IMG/VR virus record: IMGVR_UViG_3300042731_003040
Span: 44,380-108,379 of that record
From: a virus
Reading direction: 5' to 3' (one strand)
DNA: 64,000 nucleotides
Shown: positions 14,726-44,535 of the stretch, piece by piece
How the letters are laid out: each line of letters opens with the position of its first letter
How positions within the stretch are numbered: position 1 is the stretch's first letter
Program-made: the position numbers and the translations under genes
The notes under the pieces: model-generated
Told to the model about the DNA's origin: nothing
Databases searched by the model: none
The model's input: the letters and a program-made list of their open reading frames with translations, nothing else

Positions 14726-16858
14726 ATGAGCAAAACCGGTGACAGTGCTGGGCGTCCGAAAGATGCCTCCGCCACAGTTTATCTGATGGAGGAGCTGGGG
14801 GACGCTCGCCTCCGTTGCGACCAACTCATTCGGTATCTGGATGAGGCGGTCAAACTCGTGGAACAGTCCAAGTACAGGGACCACTTCTTCGAGGTAGCGG
14901 GGCATCTCATCACAGGTCTGCCCGAGGCAGCCTTCAAGCTGCAGAAAGCTCTCCAGGCGGTGGCACTGGCGGCCGACCGTTTGGACTATGAAGAGGTCAA
15001 ACAAGAACTTCGGCCCGAGAAGGTCGAGGAGCTTGAGCGAGTTCTTCAGGATGTTCGTATCCGCCAAATCAGACGTCGTTCGGAGCCTCCCATGAATTAC
15101 AAGGATACCGCTGAAAGACTCAGACTTCTCGCTGCCAAGATCAAGGAGAGCCAAGCGTTCCCTGTGGTGGAGACGTTGCTTCTGGCGAGTGAGTTGGAAG
15201 GGCAACAGAAGGTGGCTAGTAACCGAGAGGTCTTGGCGGATTTCTTCGAGGGCCTGGCGACTTCTCTGGATGAGGCCCAGCCGGGAGAGATGAGTCGAGC
15301 CTATTTGGCCAAGCTGCTTCGGCGCGTGACCGGGGAGAACCTTCAGGTCAAGCCTCCTGTCAAGCAGGCGGAGTCAGAGGTGACTGCTCTTTCTACCGAG
15401 GTAGATGTCAATCGTCTGGAGCGGGCGCTTGTTAATGCCGAGGCCCAGGTCAAGGAGATGCGACATTCTCTGAATCTGTACAAGAGAGACCCTGGTCGGA
15501 ACCAGCCTCAGCTGAGTAATCTGGTGATAGCTGCCAGCTCTGCTGCCAAGGTTTTAGACCGGCTCATTATCAAGCCCTTGTGGGGGAAGCTGGGAGCCAA
15601 GGAAGAGGATCGAGAGTCTCGTTTCGAGGAGGGGAAGCCAGCGGACCCCACGAAGGACATGAGTCCCGAGGATGCCAAGAAGTGGCGAGAGCAGAATCGT
15701 AAGCACCGAGACGAGTTCAAGGGCGCTGCTGGAGGAGACCCTGCTGACTTGGCTCACGAGATCCTAGAGCAAGGACTTCGGCATCCTGCTCTGAAGGAGA
15801 TCACCAGATCTTGGTCGAAGGTGGAGGCCGATCTGAAGAAGGCGGAGACAGAGCACAAGAACCTGCATCGGTTTGGTGTTGGAAGCACCGAGGATGTGAC
15901 TCTTGTCAATGCTCACATCGTTCCGGCTCTCAAGTCCTATCGTGATATGGTGGACATCATCATCGAGCAGATAAGCAAGCGTCTGAAGCGACGTACGGCT
16001 TCGGAAGAGGATCGAGAGTCTCGTTTCGAGGAAGGGAAACCGGCCGATCCGACCAAGAACATGAGTCCTGAGGACGCCAAGAAGTGGAAAGAGCAGAACG
16101 ATAGGCACAAGGACAAGTTCAAGAGTGCTGATGCCCAAAAGGAGTCTGCCAAGTGGATCCAGAAGGCCATCAAGGACAAGGGAGCTCTTCATCGTCACTT
16201 CGGGATCCCTGAAGACGAGACGATCCCCACCGAGAAGATCAAGAGTGAGCTAGCCAAGCTGAAGAAGAAGGAAGACAAGAGCGACGCTGACAAGAAGCTC
16301 CAGCATCAGCTCAACATGGCTCTCACCCTGCGTGGTCCCAAGGTTCCCCCTCCAGGTGGGAAGAAGGCTGGCGACGAGTGGAAGGTGGAGGCTGTAGAGG
16401 TCACGGCTGCTCTCAAGCCTAAGGACAAGAAAGTCGTCGATGCTTTTGCCGACAAGAAGCCGATGGATGGTGACTTGCTCGACACGGACGGTAAGAAGCT
16501 GGAGAAGTCTGGCCTGGGTGGCGGTACATTCGCCGAGTGGAAGGGTGGCAAGATCCACATTCTGAGCCCGGGTGGGAACCGGAGCCATGACGCAATCCTC
16601 CGCTACATGAAGAAGTCGATCCCCAAGAACGACCTTGCCGACCATCCCCAGCTGAGGGCCGCGTCAGACCCTTGGAAGGCCGCAGCCCTCAAGTTCAAGC
16701 CTGGTGACAAGGTGAGGGTCAAGGACTCTCATGGTTCTGCCAAGTTCCGGGGCGACACTGGAGAGATCGAAAAGAACGTTCCGATGGGCAAGTACTACGT
16801 CCAGCTCAAGAAGAACGGACGGTCTTTGGTGGACGAGGGAGACCTGGAAAAGGCGTGA
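14726..16858 (+). CDS. Large helical protein with duplicated segment and KOW-like C-terminus
   Basis: This 710-residue protein is of unknown role. The N-terminal third is helical and charged. Two nearly identical 40-residue segments (starting EEDRESRFEEGKPADPTK and containing MSPEDAKKW) occur at about residues 293-332 and 427-466. Between them lies a helical domain, and after the second a Lys-rich helical stretch. A domain near 545-640 contains VEAVEVTAALKPKDKKVVDA. The last 55 residues look like a KOW/SH3 barrel (KFKPGDKVRVKDSHGSAKFR, then GKYYVQLKK). Such composite proteins occur as internal head or virion-associated proteins, but the evidence here is composition and place only. Confidence 0.6.
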   Translation: MSKTGDSAGRPKDASATVYLMEELGDARLRCDQLIRYLDEAVKLVEQSKYRDHFFEVAGHLITGLPEAAFKLQKALQAVALAADRLDYEEVKQELRPEKVEELERVLQDVRIRQIRRRSEPPMNYKDTAERLRLLAAKIKESQAFPVVETLLLASELEGQQKVASNREVLADFFEGLATSLDEAQPGEMSRAYLAKLLRRVTGENLQVKPPVKQAESEVTALSTEVDVNRLERALVNAEAQVKEMRHSLNLYKRDPGRNQPQLSNLVIAASSAAKVLDRLIIKPLWGKLGAKEEDRESRFEEGKPADPTKDMSPEDAKKWREQNRKHRDEFKGAAGGDPADLAHEILEQGLRHPALKEITRSWSKVEADLKKAETEHKNLHRFGVGSTEDVTLVNAHIVPALKSYRDMVDIIIEQISKRLKRRTASEEDRESRFEEGKPADPTKNMSPEDAKKWKEQNDRHKDKFKSADAQKESAKWIQKAIKDKGALHRHFGIPEDETIPTEKIKSELAKLKKKEDKSDADKKLQHQLNMALTLRGPKVPPPGGKKAGDEWKVEAVEVTAALKPKDKKVVDAFADKKPMDGDLLDTDGKKLEKSGLGGGTFAEWKGGKIHILSPGGNRSHDAILRYMKKSIPKNDLADHPQLRAASDPWKAAALKFKPGDKVRVKDSHGSAKFRGDTGEIEKNVPMGKYYVQLKKNGRSLVDEGDLEKA
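15601..15720 (+). repeat. 120-bp direct repeat, copy 1
   Basis: First copy of an in-frame repeat inside the 710-aa gene. It matches 16003-16122 over its whole length, with mainly synonymous or conservative changes, and encodes the EEDRESRFEEGKPADPTK/MSPEDAKKW segment. Confidence 0.88.
16003..16122 (+). repeat. 120-bp direct repeat, copy 2
   Basis: Second copy of the in-frame repeat at 15601-15720. The first 28 bases are identical to copy 1; differences grow toward the 3' end. Confidence 0.88.
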
Positions 16859-29483: not shown

Positions 29484-29891
29484 ATGGCGACGACACGAGG
29501 AAGAGTCGTATACACGAACCAGGTCGTAATCGATCAGGCAGACTTCTTTGAACCTGATGGGTTCACACGGGTCACCGGGTTGGTCATCGGAGACCTGACT
29601 TCAGAGCTGTTCTTCAATAACGTGTTGCAGCCTTGGTCTTTGACTGATGGTTCTGCAACTCAAGATGCCCAGGTAGTTTCTGGGGCAGTTCTCTGGAACG
29701 AAGTTTCAGGTAGCCCGGGTTTCTACAACGTTCGTTTTCGTCCGAACGCTGAGGGCTATTGGAGACTGCTGATCAACTACCCGGCAGGGACTCAGATCAT
29801 GGGCCAGGACTATGATGTGAAGACTCAGCCACCTTTCGCCGCACCTGGACTTCGGGCTTCTTTCGTTGGTTCTTCTGACGGGCCGTGTTGA
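29484..29891 (+). CDS. Beta-rich structural protein
   Basis: This 135-residue protein has GAGG plus AAGC before the ATG. It is beta-rich: MATTRGRVVYTNQVVIDQAD then FTRVTGLVIGDLTSELFFNN, and GSPGFYNVRFRPNAEGYWRL, a pattern like small Ig-like or fibre-associated domains. The stop lies 8 bases before the next GTG. Function is unknown, with a structural role inferred from context. Confidence 0.52.
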   Translation: MATTRGRVVYTNQVVIDQADFFEPDGFTRVTGLVIGDLTSELFFNNVLQPWSLTDGSATQDAQVVSGAVLWNEVSGSPGFYNVRFRPNAEGYWRLLINYPAGTQIMGQDYDVKTQPPFAAPGLRASFVGSSDGPC

Positions 29892-29898
29892 GGTAGCG

Positions 29899-30282
29899 GT
29901 GCCCAAGACCACCTACTTGAGGAACGCCCAACTCAACCAAGCGTTGAGAGGGACTGCGTGGACACCTCCTGCATTGGTCTACTGTGCCTTGTTCAACGTG
30001 GCTCCTACAGCAGCCGGGGGAGGCACCGAGGTTTCGGTAGGAGGCTACGTTCGGCAGTCTGTGACTTTCGGAGCTCCTTCCAATGGTCGAGTCTACAACA
30101 GTACGGATGTTGTGTTTCCTGTAGCTACGGCAGATCAAGGAGACGTTGTTGCCTACGGGATCATGGATGCTCTGACAGCCGGCAACCTACTTTACTGGGC
30201 TAACTTGAACGTTGCCTACCCTGTCCAAACCGACAACCAGTGGAAGTTCCCTGTAGGGACTCTTTTGGTGATCGAGGATTGA
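29899..30282 (+). CDS. Tail-fibre-like protein
   Basis: About 127 residues from GTG 29899, which has GAGG 5 bases upstream; the frame from 29866 overlaps the previous gene and is less likely. It starts VPKTTYLRNAQLNQALRGTA, a conserved opening of a family of small phage tail-fibre proteins (TYLRNA...LRGTAYTPP...LYVALF), and continues with GGTEVSVGGYVRQSVTFGAP. The remaining strands (DVVAYGIMDALTAGNLLYWA) fit the same fold. It probably forms part of the outer tail or head fibre; the family is known mainly from annotation by similarity. Confidence 0.65.
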   Translation: MPKTTYLRNAQLNQALRGTAWTPPALVYCALFNVAPTAAGGGTEVSVGGYVRQSVTFGAPSNGRVYNSTDVVFPVATADQGDVVAYGIMDALTAGNLLYWANLNVAYPVQTDNQWKFPVGTLLVIED

Positions 30283-33017: not shown

Positions 33018-33911
33018 ATGTCAGTCGCATTCTACAGAGGGCAACAGCTGGGTTGTGAAGACCTGAACATCTACCTGGAGAACGCCTCTGGGACTCCTAC
33101 CAATGCGGCCGAGATCTGGTACTCCCTTCACGATGTGACCACGGGGCAAGAGGTGTTGTTGGGGGTTCCTCGTCGATCTCCTGTCAACCCTTCCGTGGGG
33201 CACTACTACGCTAGTGTGATCATCCCTCTTGATGCGAACATTGGGAACTACCGGGTGAGGTGGTTCTTCCGGGAAACGGTGGGGGGTCCCATTCACGAAG
33301 TGGTCCAGGAATTCTCGGTCATCGACAAGGCAACGTGTCCTACCACTTCCTACACGGATTGTGAGACGGACATGATTCGTAGGTTGAGGATTCTGCTCCG
33401 AGACAACAATCCTGACCGAAACTACCATTTCAGACCCCCTACCCACGAAGCCACGATCAACCAGTACAACCAGGTCTTCGGATTCATTTGGGAGGATGAG
33501 GAGCTTCAGGAGTACCTGGCTAGGGGCATGGACATGATCATTGCTGCCCCGCCCAGGACTCCCTTCGCTTCCTGTGATCAGCTGGTGCAGTGTCGCCCTG
33601 AGTGGAGGACTCTCCTACTCAATGGGGCTATGATCCATGCTCTCTTGGCCTTGCAGATCAACTGGATTGCTGACGAATTCGACTACAGCATCGGGGGCGT
33701 GAGTCTGACCATCGACAAGTCGAGCAAGTACGAGAGCGCCTACAACAGTGTCAAAGACATGTTCAATGACCAGTTGGAAAAGGCCAAAAGCACGGTCAAG
33801 ATCGTTCGAGGACTGCAGCAGCCTCGCTACGGTATCGGAATTCGCTCGTCTTTCGGCCCTTACACAGGTCGGGGTGTGTTGAGTCCTCGAAAGTTTGTAG
33901 GTTTCGGTTGA
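33018..33911 (+). CDS. Putative head-tail connector / neck protein
   Basis: This 297-residue protein has an N-terminal Ig-like domain (about 1-105: NAAEIWYSLHDVTTGQEVLL, YRVRWFFRETVGGPIHEVVQ) like that of the preceding structural protein. A C-terminal helical domain follows (about 115-265: ETDMIRRLRILLRDNNPDRN, EWRTLLLNGAMIHALLALQI, SKYESAYNSVKDMFNDQLEK), which resembles helical connector proteins beneath the portal. It ends with a Gly/Arg-rich tail. The combination fits a neck protein that contacts the portal and carries an outer domain. Assignment is by fold pattern and position. Confidence 0.5.
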   Translation: MSVAFYRGQQLGCEDLNIYLENASGTPTNAAEIWYSLHDVTTGQEVLLGVPRRSPVNPSVGHYYASVIIPLDANIGNYRVRWFFRETVGGPIHEVVQEFSVIDKATCPTTSYTDCETDMIRRLRILLRDNNPDRNYHFRPPTHEATINQYNQVFGFIWEDEELQEYLARGMDMIIAAPPRTPFASCDQLVQCRPEWRTLLLNGAMIHALLALQINWIADEFDYSIGGVSLTIDKSSKYESAYNSVKDMFNDQLEKAKSTVKIVRGLQQPRYGIGIRSSFGPYTGRGVLSPRKFVGFG

Positions 33912-34317: not shown

Positions 34318-35694
34318 ATGCCCTACGCTACTCAGCGAGACAGAGATCCGCACCAGCTGGAAATTGAGAGCTCCCCTTACCCGGTCTCTCCGTTGAATTT
34401 GTCCATGACTTCTGGCTACGAGCCGGGGGTCATCAATTTGACGTGGGATGACGCGGCCCAACTGTTTCAGAATTCTCGGTTTCAGATCATCGGGGTCAAC
34501 GTTTGGAGGTCTTTCGACAGCGAGTTCGGTCCTTACGATCGGGTCACGACCTTGCCGGTGGGATCTAATTTCTGGCAGGACCGTACAGACAACGTGCTGA
34601 TTCCAGCTGAGGATGTTTCGGATTCGTTCATCCTCAGAGGAGTTAACTCGACCGGATCGGACTACGGTAGGTACGTATTTCAGACCCAGTATCCTATCGT
34701 GAAGGCAGGTTCCCAGGCGATACCGGCAAACAGTCCTGATGATGTGTTGGTGATGGTGGATGGGGTCCAGGCTCGGGTAAAGCGAGTTGATGGGTTCGCC
34801 AAAGAAGTCGAGCTGGATACCACCAAATACTACAACACCGAGAAGCAGAACCAGGATACCCCTGTCTATCCGGGGGACAACAGCGTGGTCACCTGTGCCT
34901 ATCGGTACAACCGAACGCTTCTGAAGACAGACCTAGCACAAAGGGTCTTCTACAGAGTTACCACGGTAGGTCTTCCTGAGGCTTCTGATCTGTCGGCCGC
35001 TTGTTGTGAGGATCTTCGGGAGACGCCTTTGGAGCGGGCTCCTGTGACCAGCACCTCAGAGATTGAGAAGCTGGACTACATCTGGAGGGAAGGTATTCGA
35101 CGCAATCGTTGGATTCTGTTCCAGGGGGGCGAGCGAGTGAAGGTCTTCATCAAGAAGCATGTAGGGCCTATTTGCCCATGCCGAGGTCCTCACTACGAGA
35201 GTTTTCATCAGCCCAAGAATGATTGCGAGCTGTGTTTTGGGGCGGGTATTTTGGGAGGGTATGAAGGCCCCTACGATATCATCATTGCTCCTGACGATGC
35301 TGAGCGTAGGATTGCTCAACGGGACGTTGGTCGAACCGTGGAACATACCTACGAGGTCTGGACGGGTCCTTCCCCTCTCCTAAGCCAGAGAGACTTCTTG
35401 GTTAAGATCAACGGGGAGCGCTACTCAATTGGAGCCGTACGGTTTCCGTCCAATCGAGGAATGGTGTTGCAGCAGCATTTCAATATCAGCCGTTTGGACG
35501 AACAGGACATTCGTTACAGGGTCCGGGTAACGGCTCCTTGTGGGGTGTCTGCCAACGTGGCGGGAGTTGGTCGAGCTCTTCCTGGCATACCTCCTGGCAG
35601 TAATGCGTCTGTCCCCCTCACTGAGAAGTGCAACATTCCTAATGAGCGTGAGATCAGAGGCCGCACTGTGACCTGGAAGAACATCACGTTCTGA
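34318..35694 (+). CDS. Structural protein with FnIII-like domain and zinc-knuckle
   Basis: This 458-residue protein begins with an FnIII/Ig-like part (about 20-125: GVINLTWDDAAQLFQNSRFQ, VNVWRSFDSEFGPYDRVTTL). A second beta domain lies at about 130-215. A Cys cluster at about 285-310 (CPC, then CELCFGAG) reads as a zinc knuckle. The C-terminal part (330-458) is beta-rich with a Cys pair (TAPCGV, EKCNIPNE). Proteins with a CPC...C..CxGxG insertion occur in the neck region of other large phages. Likely a neck or tail-completion structural protein; exact role unknown. Confidence 0.55.
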   Translation: MPYATQRDRDPHQLEIESSPYPVSPLNLSMTSGYEPGVINLTWDDAAQLFQNSRFQIIGVNVWRSFDSEFGPYDRVTTLPVGSNFWQDRTDNVLIPAEDVSDSFILRGVNSTGSDYGRYVFQTQYPIVKAGSQAIPANSPDDVLVMVDGVQARVKRVDGFAKEVELDTTKYYNTEKQNQDTPVYPGDNSVVTCAYRYNRTLLKTDLAQRVFYRVTTVGLPEASDLSAACCEDLRETPLERAPVTSTSEIEKLDYIWREGIRRNRWILFQGGERVKVFIKKHVGPICPCRGPHYESFHQPKNDCELCFGAGILGGYEGPYDIIIAPDDAERRIAQRDVGRTVEHTYEVWTGPSPLLSQRDFLVKINGERYSIGAVRFPSNRGMVLQQHFNISRLDEQDIRYRVRVTAPCGVSANVAGVGRALPGIPPGSNASVPLTEKCNIPNEREIRGRTVTWKNITF

Positions 35695-35700
35695 TTACCT

Positions 35701-36213
35701 ATGCGGCCTCCTAAAGTCAAAGTTGGCCGAGTCAACCTCAAGCCTTTGCTCCCTCCCGGGAGTCTGGAGACATTTGATGCTCAGAAGGTCCTTCGGTCTA
35801 TTTCCAGGGAGGTGGTGAAGCAGCTCAGAGACAAAATCCTTCAGGAGCCTTTCTCGGACCGGGCCAAAGTAGCGTTGAGCAAGGCCATAGGTGTCACGGT
35901 GGGGCCCCGGAGCATCACTATCACAGCCAAGCACCCGGCCTTCAAGCCTCTACTGGAGGGACGCAAAGCCAGACAGATGACCTGGTTGACCAAGGCTAAG
36001 CGCCCCATTCCCATCATCACAGAGGACGGTGAGCTGATCTTTCGTTCGGCTACTCCTCGATCGATGCAGAGGGGCAGTTGGTATCATCCTGGAAGGTCTC
36101 CCACGACTGTCATTGAGCGTGCCCGAAAGGAGGCTCGAAAGAGCGTAAAGAAGAGAATAGTCAAGGCTTTAGCTAGCCACGTACGTAAGACGTACAAGAA
36201 GGGATCCAGATGA
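35701..36213 (+). CDS. HK97 gp10-like tail completion/neck protein (putative)
   Basis: This 170-residue protein is basic. A mixed first half (LRSISREVVKQLRDKILQEP, VALSKAIGVTVGPRSITITA) is followed by a conserved-looking SMQRGSWYHPGRSPTTVIER and a very basic helical end (ARKSVKKRIVKALASHVRKT). The W(Y)HPG-x-x-P...AR pattern is typical of HK97 gp10-type proteins, which sit at the head-tail joint. The assignment rests on this motif and on position in the neck region. Confidence 0.55.
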   Translation: MRPPKVKVGRVNLKPLLPPGSLETFDAQKVLRSISREVVKQLRDKILQEPFSDRAKVALSKAIGVTVGPRSITITAKHPAFKPLLEGRKARQMTWLTKAKRPIPIITEDGELIFRSATPRSMQRGSWYHPGRSPTTVIERARKEARKSVKKRIVKALASHVRKTYKKGSR

Positions 36214-36214
36214 A

Positions 36215-36766
36215 ATGAGTGGTGGTATGGTTGTTTTGGGCAACGTCACGGGGACTCACTTGATAGAGGATATTCAGGTGTCTGTGCCTTATCAGGTGGC
36301 TGTGACGCTCACACAAGAAGACGTTGTAAGGTCTCGTGACTTGTGGGTTGCTCTTCAGCAGAGGTTCATAGTCAAGCTCCGAGATTTTCGTCAGGTACCG
36401 AATCCTCCTAGATCGAATAATGCAACCTCGGCAGATTCTTCAGATCTGTTGAGACTGCAAGAGGAGAATCGGAAGCTTCAATCCGAGCTGAGGCAGTCGA
36501 ATCAGCGGACCGATGGTCTCGAATACAAGCTGGATGCCATCCTAGCGGCCCTAGGAAAGCTTTCTACGGTATCCCCTAGGGGAGAGACCGCTCCCGTTGA
36601 AAAGCCTCTCAGTGAGGCTGTGGGGGGTGACACGCCCATGTTCCTTCCGGAGTTTTCAGGGACTGAGTCGGAGGCTCGTATCAAGGTCAAAACTCAGCAG
36701 GAGGAGAGTGGCAGGGTACAGGAGGCGGCCGCTCTGCTGAGGAGGCTTCGCCAGCAAGAGAAGTGA
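36215..36766 (+). CDS. Coiled-coil neck-region protein
   Basis: This 183-residue protein starts almost at the previous stop. Residues 1-65 are beta-rich (MVVLGNVTGTHLIEDIQVSV), residues about 78-115 form a coiled coil (LLRLQEENRKLQSELRQSNQ), and the rest is Pro/Glu/Gln-rich and disordered, ending with a basic helix (AAALLRRLRQQEK). Unknown function; the coiled coil suggests an oligomer. Confidence 0.52.
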   Translation: MSGGMVVLGNVTGTHLIEDIQVSVPYQVAVTLTQEDVVRSRDLWVALQQRFIVKLRDFRQVPNPPRSNNATSADSSDLLRLQEENRKLQSELRQSNQRTDGLEYKLDAILAALGKLSTVSPRGETAPVEKPLSEAVGGDTPMFLPEFSGTESEARIKVKTQQEESGRVQEAAALLRRLRQQEK

Positions 36767-36801: not shown

Positions 36802-37494
36802 ATGGATCCCAAATGGAAGGCTGTTTCCGTCCCTACCAGCAAGACGGCTTGTTCCTGTGACTCTGGAAAAGCTAAATGGCCTTCCAGTTTGGAGGCAGTG
36901 TGGCAGAATCCCACTGCTTACGACGCTTTGGAGGACGGCCCTTCCTACATGCCCACGAAGACAGCCAGTACAACGGATCGGGCGGCTGTAGCCCGAATGG
37001 TTCAGGCCAATACGTACGCTGGGCAAAAGTTGGCTGACGAGGTGGGGGGAACCAGGTTAGTATCTCTGCTGACGGTCATGAAGGCTTTGTACCTGATCCA
37101 CCAGACTCATCACTGGAGGACCAACGGGGCGTCCTACTATGCGGACCATTTGTTGTTCCAGCGGATCTACGAAGAGTCTCTGGAGTACATCGATGGGATG
37201 GCAGAGCGGGCTATAGGGACGTCAAACAACCCTTGGGTGATCTGTCCTATGAAGTTGGCCAAAGGTCAGCTCAATGTCGTACACTTCTTCTGTGAGGGCA
37301 ATTCTCAACCGAGCCCTGAGCAAATGGTCAACATCAGCCTCAAAGCGGAGCTGGCTTTCTTGGCTTTTCTGAAGCAGGTTGTAGAGGCTATGAGGCAAGA
37401 GGGAAGCTCGACGGATGGCGTTGAGGACCTGATTCAGGGAACCGCCAGTAAGCATGAAGAGTTCGTTTACCTGCTGCAGCAGCGGTCCAGGTAA
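36802..37494 (+). CDS. Dps/ferritin-like protein
   Basis: This 230-residue protein has a four-helix ferritin-like core from about 60 to 225. The segment from 97 to 140 aligns without gaps to the E. coli Dps ferroxidase region: THHWRTNG (Dps AHWNMRG), ADHLLFQ (VHEMLD), and YIDGMAERAIG (HLDTMAERAV). By that alignment His104, His116, Asp131 and Glu135 equal Dps His51, His63, Asp78 and Glu82, while Dps Asp67 is Gln120 here. Dps proteins store iron and protect DNA from oxidation, forming 12-mers that may also bind DNA. Residues 1-55 are an extra N-terminal part with a CSCDSG cluster. GAGG precedes the ATG. Finding it inside the neck operon is unusual. Alternative: a ferritin-fold structural protein without iron activity. 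Confidence 0.72.
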   Translation: MDPKWKAVSVPTSKTACSCDSGKAKWPSSLEAVWQNPTAYDALEDGPSYMPTKTASTTDRAAVARMVQANTYAGQKLADEVGGTRLVSLLTVMKALYLIHQTHHWRTNGASYYADHLLFQRIYEESLEYIDGMAERAIGTSNNPWVICPMKLAKGQLNVVHFFCEGNSQPSPEQMVNISLKAELAFLAFLKQVVEAMRQEGSSTDGVEDLIQGTASKHEEFVYLLQQRSR

Positions 37495-37529: not shown

Positions 37530-38540
37530 ATGAGCAAGAAAGAAGAAGGGCTTACTCTTGGGGTAGGTCTAGACATCGGGACCATGAACCTTGTAGGGGC
37601 CCGGGAGGTGGAAGGCAAGACCGTCTTCACACAGGTACGGGACGCCTTTCTGGACCTTGATCCGGAAGCGAAACGATCTCTCAAGATGTCGGGAGTGAAC
37701 TTTCTGGAGAGCAACGGGTCCTTGGTGGTGGTTGGGGACAGTGCCTTGACCATGGCCAACCTTTTCAAGAGGGAGGCTCGTCGTCCTTTGAGTCGAGGGG
37801 TGATCTCGGCTGGGGAACTGGATGCTCAAGAGATCTTGAACGTCTTGTTGCTTGAAGTGGTGGAGCAGGCCCGGGAAGAGGGGGAGCACTGCTTCTACTC
37901 AGTTCCTGCGCCGCCTCTTGATGATCCAGGTCAAGACATCATTTTCCACACTGAGATCTTTCGTAAGATCATCAGGGGGCACAAGTACACGGCGCATCCA
38001 GCCAACGAGGCGATGGCCATCATCTTCAGCCAGTGCGTTGAGGAGCAGTTCTCGGGTTTGGCGGTGAGTTTCGGGGCCGGGATGTGCAACGTGGCCTTGG
38101 CCTACAAGGCTGCTTCTGGAATGGAATTTTCCTTGGCTCGGGGAGGAGACTGGGTGGATTCTCAGTCGGCCCGAGCGGTGGGCAAGACTGCTAGTCAGAT
38201 GTGTGCCATCAAGGAAAAGGGAGTGAACCTGGCTCAACCTCAAGGTAGAGAACAGGAGGCTCTGGCTCTCTACATTCGCTCTTTGATCAACTACTGTCTC
38301 CAGAACATCGTTGCTCAGTTCAAGAAGGTTCGAAACGATGTGTCGTTGCCTGATCCGATCCCCTTTATCGTTTCGGGAGGATCTTCGATGGCCGGCGGGT
38401 TCTTGGAGTTGTTCAAGGATGAGTTCCAGCAGGTCAAAGGGTTCCCCATCGAAATCAGTGAGATTCGAGCAGCCGCCGATCCCATGACAGCCGTGGCCGA
38501 GGGGTTGTTGGTGCTCGCCAAGCAGGAACACGAAGAGTAG
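37530..38540 (+). CDS. Actin/MreB-like ATPase
   Basis: This 336-residue protein has the three ATP motifs of the actin/Hsp70 superfamily in order and spacing: phosphate-1 GLDIGTMN (13-20), phosphate-2 VSFGAGMCNV (179-188) and adenosine IVSGGSSMAGGF (280-291). Other MreB/FtsA-like points are RPLSRGVISAGELDA (85-99), HPANEAMAIIF (156-166) and GGDWVD (205-210). The length equals MreB (about 340). Actin-like proteins polymerise with ATP and move or place cargo in cells. The next gene starts one base after the stop (GTG 38542), so it is translated with neck and tail genes. It lies 35 bases after the Dps-like gene. Whether it polymerises cannot be read from sequence. Confidence 0.82.
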   Translation: MSKKEEGLTLGVGLDIGTMNLVGAREVEGKTVFTQVRDAFLDLDPEAKRSLKMSGVNFLESNGSLVVVGDSALTMANLFKREARRPLSRGVISAGELDAQEILNVLLLEVVEQAREEGEHCFYSVPAPPLDDPGQDIIFHTEIFRKIIRGHKYTAHPANEAMAIIFSQCVEEQFSGLAVSFGAGMCNVALAYKAASGMEFSLARGGDWVDSQSARAVGKTASQMCAIKEKGVNLAQPQGREQEALALYIRSLINYCLQNIVAQFKKVRNDVSLPDPIPFIVSGGSSMAGGFLELFKDEFQQVKGFPIEISEIRAAADPMTAVAEGLLVLAKQEHEE

Positions 38541-38541
38541 C

Positions 38542-39717
38542 GTGTACTACTTTCTCACCAACTCCCTTAGGAACCGTTTGATTCTGGAGCTGCAGGATTC
38601 GTTTTCGAAGCATGCTCTCTACAAAAAGATCGTTCCTAACATCCAGAACAAGTACGCCTTCAAAGAGCGGCCTCAGTTTGGGGTAGTGGTCAAGGGAGCC
38701 AGCGGAAACAAAATCCAGCTCTCGGCGGACAACTTCATTGGGGAAGTACTGAGCCATGTCATGCTGGCGTATGTGGGGGAACATCAGTTTCCCTTGGAGT
38801 GGGTGAGAGAGGACCTGAATAGAGTTAGGGCAGCAGGAGGTTTCCCTTCTCCTCCGGGGATCTACTATATCGAGGTTCTTCAGGCTCCAACCAATCCGAC
38901 AGAGCCTGGGTTTTTCGCTATCGACCCTCTTTACACGCAGCCTGATGAAGCGGTTCTGGTTTTCCAGTCGGGAATTGAGAAAGAGGCCCAGCTTCAGAAC
39001 GTACCCGTTCAGGACACTGTGCGGATCTGGGAGAACAACAAGCGGCTTCTCATCGAGGGAACGGACTACATCGTCAATTATGAGACGGGGGCGGTGGCTG
39101 TCTTGCAGTCGTTCCCTCCTGGGACTACTTGGATTGCTCAATACCGTTATGCTGGGGAGTCCCAAGGTCCTATTCCCTTCTACTGGAACAGGGCGGACTT
39201 CGAGAGCATTCCGGGGGTGGTACTGGCTTTTGGAAAGAGAGCTGTTGAGGGGGATACGGTGGCTGTGGTTGTCTACCAGGATAGGGTAGGCACAGCCAAG
39301 GCTTATGGAGGGCAATTCGAAGCCTCTTTTGATTTGGATGTTATGGCTCGTGATACCGAGCAGGTGGGGGAAATCGCCGACATGATCTTCATGTACCTCA
39401 TGGCGGAGAAGCGTCCGATTCTGAGTGAAGAAGGTCTAGAGATCATGGACGTCTCTATGGGGGGTGAGGCTGAAGAAGTGATGGATGAGAGTGGAGACAA
39501 CTACTCCTATACCGTTTCCATGTCGGTACAGATCCAGTCGGTGTGGGAAATTCATATTCCGCAACCTCTCACCATCAGCAGAGCTACTCCTGTGACAGCT
39601 GCGGGGGATTCCGATCCTTCTCAACCTTCAGGACTTGTGGCCAGGGCGGACAAGCTGTTTTTCCAGACCACCCCCATTCTGGCCAACAGAAATCCAGATT
39701 ACGAACGCATCGGATGA
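38542..39717 (+). CDS. Neck or tail-terminator structural protein (putative)
   Basis: This 391-residue protein starts at GTG one base after the actin-like gene stop. It has a helical N-terminus (RNRLILELQDSFSKHALYKK), a helical/mixed first domain and a beta-rich middle (VPVQDTVRIWENNKRLLIEG, TDYIVNYETGAVAVLQSFPP). A C-terminal half with RDTEQVGEIADMIFMYLMAE and YSYTVSMSVQIQSVWEIHIP follows. Position just before the sheath gene is that of T4-like tail terminator or sheath-stabiliser genes, but sequence identity cannot be judged. No motif is decisive. Confidence 0.5.
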   Translation: MYYFLTNSLRNRLILELQDSFSKHALYKKIVPNIQNKYAFKERPQFGVVVKGASGNKIQLSADNFIGEVLSHVMLAYVGEHQFPLEWVREDLNRVRAAGGFPSPPGIYYIEVLQAPTNPTEPGFFAIDPLYTQPDEAVLVFQSGIEKEAQLQNVPVQDTVRIWENNKRLLIEGTDYIVNYETGAVAVLQSFPPGTTWIAQYRYAGESQGPIPFYWNRADFESIPGVVLAFGKRAVEGDTVAVVVYQDRVGTAKAYGGQFEASFDLDVMARDTEQVGEIADMIFMYLMAEKRPILSEEGLEIMDVSMGGEAEEVMDESGDNYSYTVSMSVQIQSVWEIHIPQPLTISRATPVTAAGDSDPSQPSGLVARADKLFFQTTPILANRNPDYERIG

Positions 39718-39720
39718 ACC

Positions 39721-40155
39721 ATGCCCAAGTACACTTTCGAGTGTGATTCCTGCAACGTTAGGTTCACTCGGACTCTCAAAATGGGAGAACACCTGACCTG
39801 CGCCTGTCCCAAGTGCAGAGAGCAGGTTCCTAGGTTTTGGGATGGACAGGGGTTTTCCTTCGATTTTGCCGAGGGAGGGAAGGCCCCGGCAAACAGTGGG
39901 GTGACCAAGCACGATTATCCGACGGCGGACCAGGCTGTGGGAAGGTCCGCCGACAAACGGTGGGCAGAGTACCGAGAGCGGGAAAAGGTGAAAGAAAAGG
40001 TTCGGGAGAGGGGGGGTTCCAGAGCCTTGAATCGGACAGACTCCCCGGAAATAAACGGAAATCGTAGCTATATCCAGTACACAGCCATAGGAGAAAAGGA
40101 GCTCCAGGGACGTCGGGAAGTGGTGGGTAAGCTTAAGCAGCTAGAGCCTCGATAA
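39721..40155 (+). CDS. FmdB-type zinc-ribbon protein
   Basis: This 144-residue protein begins MPKYTFECDSCNVRFTRTLK with Cys8, Cys11, and then Cys27, Cys29 and Cys32 (CACPKC), the four-cysteine ribbon of the FmdB family. The remaining two thirds are basic and Glu/Arg-rich with NRSYIQYTAIGEKELQGRRE. FmdB-like ribbons are common in phages and their roles are mostly unknown; regulatory and structural roles have been suggested. The start lies 3 bases after the previous stop. It closes the neck cluster before the 120-base gap. Confidence 0.65.
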   Translation: MPKYTFECDSCNVRFTRTLKMGEHLTCACPKCREQVPRFWDGQGFSFDFAEGGKAPANSGVTKHDYPTADQAVGRSADKRWAEYREREKVKEKVRERGGSRALNRTDSPEINGNRSYIQYTAIGEKELQGRREVVGKLKQLEPR

Positions 40156-40275: not shown

Positions 40276-43200
40276 GTGTCTCTAGGACCATTGACGACCT
40301 ACGTTCCCCCTGGCATCTACACCCGCACCCTGACCGAGGTCAACGCAGCCAACTTGGTGGCTGGCCTTCGGATCCCCGTTGTCATTGGCGTGGGACAGGA
40401 ACAGCTGGAGCAATCCGACCTGGAAATGGTCAGGGGTAGCTCGGCTACTCTGGACCAGCAAATCGTCAGCGAGGACGTCTCACAGTCTTTCGTGGTGGAC
40501 AACTCCAATCCTCTGGTTCCCGTTCTGGGACCCACGGATGGGACCTTCACGACGGTTCGAGTTCGCAACTACCCCATTGTGGATGGACAGGGCTTTGGCC
40601 GAGTGACCAACGACGTTCGTTCGGTCAGTGCCACGGTCAACGGGACGCCTGTGGCCATCGGAAGTGTGCAGGGTACCAACGGATACATCACCTTCCAGGT
40701 ACCGCCTCAGGTGGGGGACGACGTTCGGGTCACCTATTACTTCCACCGAGGAGACACTGCTTTCACGGATACCGTGTCTGACCAGGTGACTCCGACCACA
40801 GCGGACCTGACCACTCCTGCAGTGGCCAACTTCGCTTTCACGACAGGTATCAGCGACACCTTCGTGATCGGAGTGGATGGTACTGACAGTACCGTTGTCT
40901 TTACCGAGGGCATTCACACAGCTCTAGCCGTCAAGACCATGATCGACGCCGCTCTGATCACTGGATTGACTACGGCAGTCTTCACGGACAACGAAGGCAA
41001 TGACCACGTCACTCTGACGGCGGCTCAGAAGCTGGTGATTGGTACGGGCAACGCTAATGGAGCTTTGGGCTTCACGGCGGGGGCTTCCACCAGTCGAAAC
41101 GTCAACTTCCGGGTGTTCCAGCGTCCTATCGTGGATGGAACGGATGGAGGGATCACCACCACAGACCCAAGCAAGGTTGTGGTGCTAGTGAACAACTCTC
41201 AGGTCATTCCCACTGCTGTGGATGGCACCAACGGAATCGTGACTTTGCCGATGGCCCCTGCGGCTGGAAGCACCGTCACAATTCAGTACTGGGCCAACAC
41301 GTGGCAGGACACCTTCGACTACTTGCCCAACACGCTGGTTTCGACGGTGACCCGTTGCGGGTTCTCGCCTGGTCGTTCGGACTACATCCAGAACCAGGAT
41401 TTCGTCATCTCCAATCCGAGCGAGGATGTCTCGGTGGTCCACTGGGGCTCCAGTGTGGCTGTTTCCTCAGTCCTGAGAACGGCTGGGGCAACCGTCTTCG
41501 ACGAGACGCAGATCCTGGCCTCTTTGGTCGATGACAAGATGTACTTGGCGGAATGCACCCGGGTGGTAGACACCACGGTCGTTCCTGCCGAGACATCTCC
41601 CAATGAGTTCCTGCTCCCGGCTATTCCGACCACAGGCAACGGTCGAGACACGCCGCTTGGGAGCACACTCTACAACACGGTCACCAATGGCCGGATGAAC
41701 CTGAACACGGATCGTCCCGATCTCATCACGGTCTACACTGGTCGAGATCTTCGGGATGCGTTGGGTCGGGATCCCATCGATGTGATCGAAGTGGATGCCC
41801 TCAATCGCCAGATCACGCTCAAGCAGGCCGTTCCTCCAGATCACAACGCCTACGCCACGTTCTGGTATAGCCGTCTGTCTGACGACACCTACGTGCTGAC
41901 CAACAAGGTGGCTGGAGCCGTTGGTACAGGAGAGTACGAGGTATTCAGTTCCGTTCAGAACAACAACCTCTTGCAGGTTCTGTTCGGAAGCAAGACGGCT
42001 ACCGAAGTCATTCAGTGGCCTCGGGGAGTGGAGAGTATTCCAGATGCCTTCCACACGGGTACGGGAACTGGGTCTCCAGTGGCCGAGACTGTCACTGTTA
42101 CCTTCGCTTCTGAGGCAGCCAAGAATGCTGCTTACACTAACGAAGGGGCCGCTCCCTACGAGTTCTTCGCTGGAACTTCGGATCAGTGGGTGACCGTGCT
42201 CAACGGCGTGACCTACCCTACGGACCTGGATACAGCCGTGGTTGGTCGAATCGTTGGGACTCGGGTGGCTGTGGATGGTTCCGACCAGATCACCTTCACC
42301 ACGGGCGTCAACGACGTTCTGAACCTGACCATCGACGGGACGGACTACACTGTGACTTTCTCAGCAGGCGCTACTGCTGTGGGGCCAGTGGGAACGCCTG
42401 GGACGGTCCTTGCTCAGATCGCTGCGGTCATTCCGACCACACCTGAACTGGTTCAGTTGGGTCCCTCGGGATCTGATGTGATGTTCATCATCCCCTCGTC
42501 TTCGACGCCTGCGGCTTTGCCTGGTGGCTTCGACCATGTCTCTGCGGTCAGCGTCCGTCAGGGTACTGCCGAGACGACTTTGGGCTTTGTGCCTTTCCAG
42601 TCGGCCTCGGGGACTCCCACGGCAACCAACAAGCCGGCCACCCTTTTGGGTACGGAGACCGGGGACTTCATCATCACTCTTGGCGTGAACGACGAGTTCA
42701 AGTTCCGGGTCGATGGATTGGAGTACACAGTCACTCTGACGGCGGGCACTCGTACGGCGACCCAGGTGGTTTCGGACATCACGGGTGTGGTTGCTGGGGT
42801 GGCTTCTGTGGGTACCTTGGCCAACTTGGACAAGGTTCGACTCACCAGTACCACCACCAACTCTGGCTCTAGGATCGTCATTCTCGATGGCTCAGCCAAC
42901 GATACGCTGGGCTTCACCGAAGATGATTCGGCGAGCTACACGCCTGTCACGGCTCAGGAAGTGGTCAACGAGCTTCTGGCCACGGCCAGTTTCCAGACCG
43001 ACGGGGTGGCTTACGTTTCCACCATCAATGGAAGCCAGTACGTAACCATTGAGTCCAGTGATGTGGGAGCCACTACCCCATCGGCATCGAGCATCGCTTT
43101 CACGTCGGTTTCCAACTCGGCATTCAACACTACCACGGGTACAGGCATCGAGCCTGGCACCAGTGGAGACAATGGTGAGGACGCTCGGGACATTTACACC

Positions 43201-44535
43201 GTTGCCACGGACCGAACAGACGGCCTGGGTTCTGGTGGAACCGGTGTTCCGGGGCAGACCTACACGGATGCCAAGACGGGCCTGAGATTCACGGTTCTGG
43301 AGTCTGCCACGGGGTCCTACACTCCTGGAGGCACCTTTACTCTGACTGTCAGCCCGACCTGGAAAGTCCATCCTTCGATTCCAAGCCTGCAGTTGGGCGG
43401 TCTCGAAGTCATCGTCACGGACACGGTGGGTGTGGGAGTGGACGACACGGCCAATGTTCAGGCGTTCAATCCTGGTGGTAGCGAGCCAGCTGTCGGAGAC
43501 TTCTACTACATCAGCTATCAGTACCTGAAGCAGGATTTCTCGACTCGGCTGTTCCAAACCTTCAAGGTCATCGAGGCCAACTTTGGTCGTTTGAGTCCTG
43601 AAAACAGGGTCACCTTGGCTAGCTTCCTGGCCATTCTGAATGGTGCGGTCCTCGTGGGTATCAAACAGGTGCTCAAGGAGTCCAACACCAACCAGGCCAG
43701 TGACGCTTCGTTCTTGGCGGCCCTTCAGGAGCTGACCATTCCGCTGCCTGGCAACGTCAAGCCGGATGTATTGGTGCCTCTCACGACCTCTACGACGGTC
43801 TATGGGGCTCTGATGCAGCACTGTGAGGTTCAGTCCAACATTCGCAACCAAGCGGAAAGGATGGGCTTCATTGGGTTCGCTTCGGGAACCTCTCCGATCA
43901 CAGCCCAAACGATTGCCAAGAGCTTGCTCAGCAACCGTATCGTGGCTGTGTACCCGGACTCGGCAGTCATTACTGTGACCAATGAACTGGGTGAGAGCAG
44001 CGAATCTCTGGTTGACGGCACCTTCCTGGCTTCAGCTTTGGCTGGTGCGATCGTCAGCCCGGCTGTGGACGTGGCGACTCCGTACACGAGGCGACAACTT
44101 GTCGGAATCGACCGGCTTCCTCGGGTTTTGGACCCGGTGGAGGCAAGCCAGACAGCAGTGGCTGGTATCACGGTCCTGGAGGATCTCGCAACAACTGTTC
44201 GAGTCAAGCAGGGTCTGACCACGGACATGTCCACGATTCTGACTCGCCTTCCCACGGTGACTCAGATTGCGGACTTCGTGCAGCAACAGTCCCGAGCTAC
44301 CTTGGATGCCTTCGTGGGCACCAAGTTCCTCAGCCAAAGGACGAACGAAGTCGAAGTCTCGATGACTTCTCTGTTCAACCAGATGTTGCAGGCAGAGATT
44401 GTTGGAGGCTTCACGGGAATCAACGCAGAGGTGGATCCCAACGATCCGACCATCATGCGGTTCGAGGCGTTCTACGCTCCGATCTTCCCGCTTTTGTACA
44501 TCGTCCTCACATTCAACCTAAGAGCTAACGTCTAG
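40276..44535 (+). CDS. Tail sheath protein (large, modular)
   Basis: This 1419-residue protein is the probable contractile sheath subunit. The start is GTG with AGGAG 6 bases before it. The N-terminus (LTTYVPPGIYTRTLTEVN) and C-terminal domain (from about 1080: RLSPENRVTLASFLAILNGA, IPLPGNVKPDVLVPLTTSTT, then TRLPTVTQIADFVQQQSRAT and LLYIVLTFNLRANV) follow sheath form. T4 gp18 has 659 residues, so this one is more than double. The extra mass is beta-rich insertions: modules at about 186-264, 665-770 and 785-878 all have a TTGxxDxF-like strand, a VTF strand, a helix and an LGF end. Codon use resembles that of the capsid gene and a strong terminator follows, so high expression is likely. Sheath identity is from form, size class and position before the tube gene. 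Confidence 0.7.
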   Translation: MSLGPLTTYVPPGIYTRTLTEVNAANLVAGLRIPVVIGVGQEQLEQSDLEMVRGSSATLDQQIVSEDVSQSFVVDNSNPLVPVLGPTDGTFTTVRVRNYPIVDGQGFGRVTNDVRSVSATVNGTPVAIGSVQGTNGYITFQVPPQVGDDVRVTYYFHRGDTAFTDTVSDQVTPTTADLTTPAVANFAFTTGISDTFVIGVDGTDSTVVFTEGIHTALAVKTMIDAALITGLTTAVFTDNEGNDHVTLTAAQKLVIGTGNANGALGFTAGASTSRNVNFRVFQRPIVDGTDGGITTTDPSKVVVLVNNSQVIPTAVDGTNGIVTLPMAPAAGSTVTIQYWANTWQDTFDYLPNTLVSTVTRCGFSPGRSDYIQNQDFVISNPSEDVSVVHWGSSVAVSSVLRTAGATVFDETQILASLVDDKMYLAECTRVVDTTVVPAETSPNEFLLPAIPTTGNGRDTPLGSTLYNTVTNGRMNLNTDRPDLITVYTGRDLRDALGRDPIDVIEVDALNRQITLKQAVPPDHNAYATFWYSRLSDDTYVLTNKVAGAVGTGEYEVFSSVQNNNLLQVLFGSKTATEVIQWPRGVESIPDAFHTGTGTGSPVAETVTVTFASEAAKNAAYTNEGAAPYEFFAGTSDQWVTVLNGVTYPTDLDTAVVGRIVGTRVAVDGSDQITFTTGVNDVLNLTIDGTDYTVTFSAGATAVGPVGTPGTVLAQIAAVIPTTPELVQLGPSGSDVMFIIPSSSTPAALPGGFDHVSAVSVRQGTAETTLGFVPFQSASGTPTATNKPATLLGTETGDFIITLGVNDEFKFRVDGLEYTVTLTAGTRTATQVVSDITGVVAGVASVGTLANLDKVRLTSTTTNSGSRIVILDGSANDTLGFTEDDSASYTPVTAQEVVNELLATASFQTDGVAYVSTINGSQYVTIESSDVGATTPSASSIAFTSVSNSAFNTTTGTGIEPGTSGDNGEDARDIYTVATDRTDGLGSGGTGVPGQTYTDAKTGLRFTVLESATGSYTPGGTFTLTVSPTWKVHPSIPSLQLGGLEVIVTDTVGVGVDDTANVQAFNPGGSEPAVGDFYYISYQYLKQDFSTRLFQTFKVIEANFGRLSPENRVTLASFLAILNGAVLVGIKQVLKESNTNQASDASFLAALQELTIPLPGNVKPDVLVPLTTSTTVYGALMQHCEVQSNIRNQAERMGFIGFASGTSPITAQTIAKSLLSNRIVAVYPDSAVITVTNELGESSESLVDGTFLASALAGAIVSPAVDVATPYTRRQLVGIDRLPRVLDPVEASQTAVAGITVLEDLATTVRVKQGLTTDMSTILTRLPTVTQIADFVQQQSRATLDAFVGTKFLSQRTNEVEVSMTSLFNQMLQAEIVGGFTGINAEVDPNDPTIMRFEAFYAPIFPLLYIVLTFNLRANV

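Follow-up and report, generated by a model that had tools for sequence, protein, structure and literature searches.

A Dps mini-ferritin encoded among the neck-type genes of a huge-phage clade

The gene at 36802-37494 (+ strand) of the window, the whole 64,000-nt stretch of viral DNA analyzed here, encodes a 230-aa protein that, by its sequence and predicted fold, is a genuine Dps (mini-ferritin) with the ferroxidase site residues intact. In earlier descriptions, Dps is an auxiliary gene that phages carry occasionally. In the huge-phage clade examined here it is inherited vertically, is present in nearly every member and keeps a fixed position amid the virion-assembly genes; its active-site residues are invariant, and the protein has terminal peptides of its own. 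Phage-encoded Dps is already known, with published examples in Gratiaviridae and Flandersviridae (PMC8008677) and in Lactobacillus phages (PMC6669764), but a core, syntenic and tagged subfamily appears to be new. In the papers we consulted, Dps is nowhere described as a core gene within the structural block of huge phages, and the main text of "Clades of huge phages" (PMC7162821) mentions neither ferritin nor Dps nor actin.

Predicted fold and ferroxidase site

The open reading frame starts with ATG, and its boundaries are exactly 36802 and 37494. Its product carries the motifs THHWRTNG, ADHLLF and YIDGMAERAIG, and a sequence-only reading had called it Dps/ferritin-like, an identity borne out by profile matches, by solved Dps chains and by the predicted fold. 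The Pfam Ferritin profile (PF00210), proposed earlier as a check, matched at E = 2.6e-5 and 24.6 bits, barely over the curated gathering cut-off of 24.5, and PHROG 3636, "DNA binding protein," matched at 1.3e-10. A phmmer search of PDB with the single sequence gave 1jig (Dlp-2) as the top match (1.9e-8), and the family profile gave 1ji5 at E = 2.4e-12 among solved Dps chains. Taken together, these scores rule out a chance match.

Using an alignment of 32 sequences, AlphaFold2 (AF2) modeled the protein with a mean pLDDT of 84.9, above 90 in the ferritin core and with low confidence in the N-terminal extension up to about residue 56. The predicted helices run in the order A-B-BC-C-D (residues 85-106, 112-140, 149-164, 172-200 and 205-229), so that the model contains both the four-helix ferritin bundle on which the Dps call depended and the short BC helix between B and C that is a Dps hallmark (37246-37293, +). 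Helix D (37414-37488, +) includes an H218-E219...Y223 LL.QR stretch conserved among relatives. Structural comparison of the model by VIA-align 2 gave a best Z of 16.5 (rmsd 2.1 over 139 residues), with nearly all of the top rows being Dps proteins, and Foldseek gave E = 3e-4. Dlp-1 and Dlp-2 of Bacillus anthracis (1ji5, 1jig), Nostoc Dps4 and Thermosynechococcus DpsA (5hjh, 2vxx) share with the phage protein the four-helix fold, the BC helix and intersubunit ferroxidase residues (sequence E of 2e-12, Z of 15.6-16.2). The phage protein differs from them in its longer N-terminal extension, where a GPPYLP-type peptide occurs, in its DHLLF.R.Y signature and in the H-E...YLL.QR stretch of helix D.

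The ferroxidase half-sites lie within residues 100-139 (37099-37218, +) and comprise H104, H116, Q120, D131 and E135. His104, His116, Asp131 and Glu135 align, as had been claimed, with Dps His51, His63, Asp78 and Glu82, and all four are invariant in 81 of the 81 distinct relatives that reach the site, as is Trp105. The equation of Dps Asp67 with Gln120 holds for the window protein but not for most of the family, in which this position is Glu (41 relatives), Asp (18), Gln (15), Met (5) or Ala (1) and is acidic in 59/81. In canonical Dps proteins, residue 67 is Glu or Asp and contacts the metal via a water molecule (Howe et al., PMC6675082), and the Asn found there in Nostoc Dps4, an iron-oxidizing protein, binds no metal (PMC6675082). 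Because this position touches the metal only indirectly and Dps4 tolerates Asn, Gln120 need not signify a dead center. We also considered a cyanobacterial His-type center, defined by His replacing Asp78 (PMC6675082), and rejected it, since Asp131 is kept in 81/81 relatives; the phage protein has Asp where Nostoc Dps4 has His78.

Gene order and descent in the huge-phage clade

The window is part of a 108-kb viral contig, and an identical Dps gene occurs in a 437-kb contig. The gene had been read as lying inside a neck cluster and running in the direction of its neighbors. The shared direction is confirmed for C458, D170, E183, the Dps gene, VOL and G391, all on the + strand, with a gap of 35 nt on each side of the Dps gene; the neck setting draws support from PHROG matches of the neighbors, which are weak but recur, and from weak gp10-like fold matches of D170. 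On the upstream side are A297, a head-tail connector-like protein (33018-33911, +; phrog_17327 in 8/13 family members, best 1.9e-5); C458, a virion structural protein (34318-35694, +; phrog_1004 in 14/17 members, best 1e-5); D170, tentatively HK97 gp10-like (neck/tail completion; 35701-36213, +), whose AF2 model (pLDDT 75) has gp10/tail-component proteins as its best viral fold matches, weak at E = 0.013-0.019; and, directly before the Dps gene, E183, a coiled-coil protein assigned to the block by synteny (36215-36766, +; Trimer_CC at 0.0058, below cut-off). On the downstream side are VOL, an actin-superfamily protein (37530-38540, +); G391, tentatively a virion structural protein (38542-39717, +; phrog_11431 in 3/18 members, best 1e-4); ZN144, a zinc-ribbon protein (39721-40155, +; Zn_ribbon_8 at 1.8e-7, below the Pfam cut-off, and synteny); and H1419, a large protein with a DUF2460-like stretch (40276-44535, +; 3.2e-5, below the Pfam cut-off, and synteny). 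PDB profile searches with C458, D170, G391 and A297 gave no convincing match, nor did a PDB fold search with D170. Farther upstream, a head protein is encoded at 29866-30282 (phrog_240, 1.3e-25), which supports a head-to-neck order leading into the block, and directly after the structural genes a large protein at 44708-49126 matches a DNA helicase (phrog_1967, 3.3e-78). With an actin-like gene inside it and a helicase after it, the block is not made up purely of virion genes.

VOL matches Pfam Volactin (PF25216) at 5e-69; the likeness to Volactin, an actin-like protein of Haloferax volcanii, thus belongs to this adjacent gene and not to Dps. A VOL-based search recovered 72 viral loci. The labels clade 1 to clade 3 used below are our own, drawn from gene context and the Dps tree. 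VOL adjoins Dps throughout clade 1, and its cellular matches in our genome scan, in Hyphomicrobiales MAGs, are only about 30% identical. Probable inteins, recognized by HINT-like sequence only, interrupt the C458 gene in one locus (L050:5729-8362, 877 aa) and the actin-like gene in another (L085:8369-10480, 703 aa).

Clade 1 comprises 60 distinct Dps proteins on huge-phage contigs of up to 529 kb; these contigs are metagenomic and possibly incomplete, near-duplicates were collapsed by sequence only, and start codons were chosen by rule. Its gene order is A297, B111, C458, D170, E183, (X), DPS, VOL, G391, ZN144, H1419, where X is a small protein present in some loci, and Dps fills this one slot, between the neck-type genes and the Volactin gene, in nearly every clade-1 locus that extends that far. 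Loci that span the slot but lack Dps are L050, L058, the distant L061, L069 and L085, and remoter VOL matches that do not share the block. Whole-record searches found no Dps elsewhere in L050 (398 kb) or L058 (411 kb), and both keep the block, so Dps is not essential. A large distance separates Dps from the block on LR745208.1 (485 kb).

Across 38 loci, Dps proteins share a mean pairwise identity of 43%; the corresponding values are 67% for VOL, 60% for both C458 and G391, 47% for D170 and 31% for E183. Dps distances correlate with those of neighboring genes (r of 0.42-0.72, reached in 0/1000 label shuffles), and in the eight closest pairs the dN/dS of Dps (NG86) is 0.08-0.16; clade-1 Dps is under purifying selection, with dN/dS of about 0.1. 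In the Dps tree the syntenic proteins form one group, within which the non-syntenic L176 is nested, and grouping follows genomic context.

From the 207 relatives detected by an IMG/VR profile scan, we retained the top 80. In clade 2, represented by L182, Dps is flanked on one side by thymidylate synthase/kinase, MazG-like, phosphoesterase and HNH genes and on the other by an epimerase, a VOL-like gene and a DNA polymerase; hhalign comparison of these neighbors with the window block matched VOL alone. In clade 3 (L196, L197 and L201), a few genes separate Dps from terminase and portal, and in the L195 and L197 contigs the C458/VOL block is more than 100 kb from Dps. Recent capture of the gene from a host was rejected: a pattern-based scan of 84,980 bacterial and archaeal genomes, combined with the family profile, found no relative among 56 pattern matches, and a plasmid search found none either. 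Because the genome scan requires the family's own peptide patterns, the gene may still have a distant cellular origin. Among 50,697 phage records, the only full-length-like relative was in one uncultured metagenomic record, and annotated Dps matches from cultured phages cover only 18-38% of the window protein.

Terminal peptides

The extension before helix A (residues 1-83; 36802-37050, +) begins MDPKWKA and has a net charge of 0. Its CSCDSG cluster (residues 17-22; 36850-36867, +), singled out in the sequence-only reading, is present in the window protein but is no family feature: K.AC.C recurs in only 3/82 relatives, and we rejected the cluster as a metal-binding family trait. What is conserved is a peptide of the form W34..P37..Y....GP(P/S)Y(L/M)P51 (36901-36954, +), with W34, P37, G46, P47, P48 (Ser in the window), L50 (Met in the window) and P51 as its conserved positions. 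The pattern W..P..(Y/F)....GPP(Y/F) occurs in 51/60 distinct clade-1 proteins versus 0/20 relatives outside the slot, and several of the nine clade-1 exceptions are truncated at locus ends.

C-terminal tags, either Y.Y.R/YDR-like or W-K-like, are found by a strict pattern in 41/60 clade-1 proteins versus 1/20 outside the slot; the window protein has none. L176, which belongs to clade 1 by tree but lies outside the block, lacks both the N-terminal motif and the C-terminal tag. The clade-1 terminal peptides look like docking peptides. Slot and peptides mostly mark a single clade, however, so common descent suffices to explain their correlation.

The WK-like ending also closes protein X, which is fused to Dps in L077. 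Endings of the type TAS(D)DPWK occur at the C-termini of many Dps and X proteins, and tandem KTA.WKV copies occur in L034:223-669. Protein X is encoded upstream of Dps in L062 (7838-9259), L059, L044, L048 and others, but not in the window's genome, and carries one to four or more copies of a domain LWKY.DP.G..FYL.EK..T.KSP.TGK.F..KP. The idea that this is a WW-like domain binding GPPYLP was dropped, as a Pfam scan gave no match above cut-off and GPPYLP is kept where X is absent. We likewise rejected the WK ending as a genome-wide phage address label: among all ORFs of the 437-kb contig, the sole clear carrier is the ORF at 14726-16858 of the window, a 710-aa protein with an internal, WK-tag-like AASDPWKAAAL stretch.

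Proposed function and alternatives

We slightly favor, over its negation, the view that the protein forms a ferroxidase cage that is expressed late and works inside the infected cell, where it would remove iron and peroxide near assembling phage DNA. Twelve subunits would form a hollow cage, with Fe(II) bound at every dimer interface by His104 and His116 from one chain and Asp131 and Glu135 from its partner. The bound iron would be oxidized with H2O2 or O2 and stored as ferric iron inside, so that hydroxyl-radical (Fenton) chemistry would be deprived of its reactants during copying and packaging of the phage genome. Attachment of such a cage to an assembly partner is probably the task of the clade-specific N- and C-terminal peptides, and the tandem arrangement of its gene with those of the neck and head would make the cage a late product. 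The predicted Dps fold, conserved ligands, purifying selection and fixed gene order speak for this view, as do neighbors that match virion families, a Dps tree that follows genomic context and terminal peptides found mostly inside the slot; we count against it the Gln at the Asp67 position, the tag/slot correlation that is largely that of one clade, and the two phages (L050, L058) that do without Dps. It overlaps with host protection and with a place in the virion, both discussed below, and the likelihoods we attach to the three are neither exclusive nor meant to sum to one.

A somewhat unlikely alternative is that Dps shields the infected cell rather than the phage DNA as such, the neck operon supplying only late expression. 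Such a role has been proposed for gut phages with Dps and Mn-catalase; the argument is published for Gratiaviridae (PMC8008677) and Lactobacillus phages (PMC6669764), and relatives in other modules fit it as well. Dps is phage-borne in these groups (Gratiaviridae/Flandersviridae, Lactobacillus myophages) and in Cronobacter, Aeromonas and Salmonella phages, as it is here, although the Lactobacillus phage gene is reported to sit near genes of DNA metabolism rather than in a neck block (PMC6669764). Vertical inheritance as a core gene, together with clade-specific tails, goes beyond what a sporadic auxiliary gene would show and counts against host protection; the chemistry is common to host protection and to a cage guarding phage DNA, and the difference is what is protected.

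The sequence-only reading suggested that the product could be a virion component, and of this we are more doubtful. Dps would then be built or packaged into the particle, for instance in the neck or head, held by the GPPYLP peptide and the C-terminal tags, and would either protect packaged or injected DNA from oxidation or enter the cell with it. The fixed slot among connector and neck genes across the whole clade, the confinement of the terminal peptides to the slot clade, the lack of both peptides in L176 and the proximity of Dps to terminase and portal in L196, L197 and L201 are all consistent with a virion protein. Yet L050 and L058 have the full block without Dps, relatives reside in a replication/nucleotide cluster, block and Dps are more than 100 kb apart in L195 and L197, and the block itself includes an actin-like gene and has a helicase gene after it. 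This movement from module to module speaks against Dps being an indispensable part of the neck, although in clade 1 alone the protein may serve in the virion. We view with equal doubt the broader proposal that this clade uses dedicated docking peptides at the ends of the protein to mount a ferroxidase cage in or on the virion or assembly site; if it does, particles or assembly foci would carry their own iron and peroxide detoxification. If Dps does act during assembly or within the particle, phages would be answering with an enzyme to selection imposed by oxidative damage to their packaged DNA.

It is highly improbable that the protein compacts the DNA of phage or host as E. coli Dps does, by means of a basic tail at its N-terminus. 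The names of PHROGs 3636 and 858 and the history of the family suggest such a role, but the tails are neutral to acidic: over 44 proteins the medians are -2 for the N-tail, +1 for the C-tail and 5.9 for pI, and the window protein has an N-tail charge of 0 and a pI of 6.1, so that neither it nor the median protein has a basic N-tail of the E. coli type. Least credible of all is a ferritin fold kept as pure scaffold without iron chemistry, for which Gln120 and the 15 Gln and 5 Met at this position in the family could be cited, given that H104, H116, D131 and E135 persist in 81/81 relatives despite a mean clade-1 identity of about 43%. One relative has a different architecture: a 451-aa protein (L179:2610-3965) in which the Dps domain is fused to an N-terminal glycine-rich, membrane-like segment.
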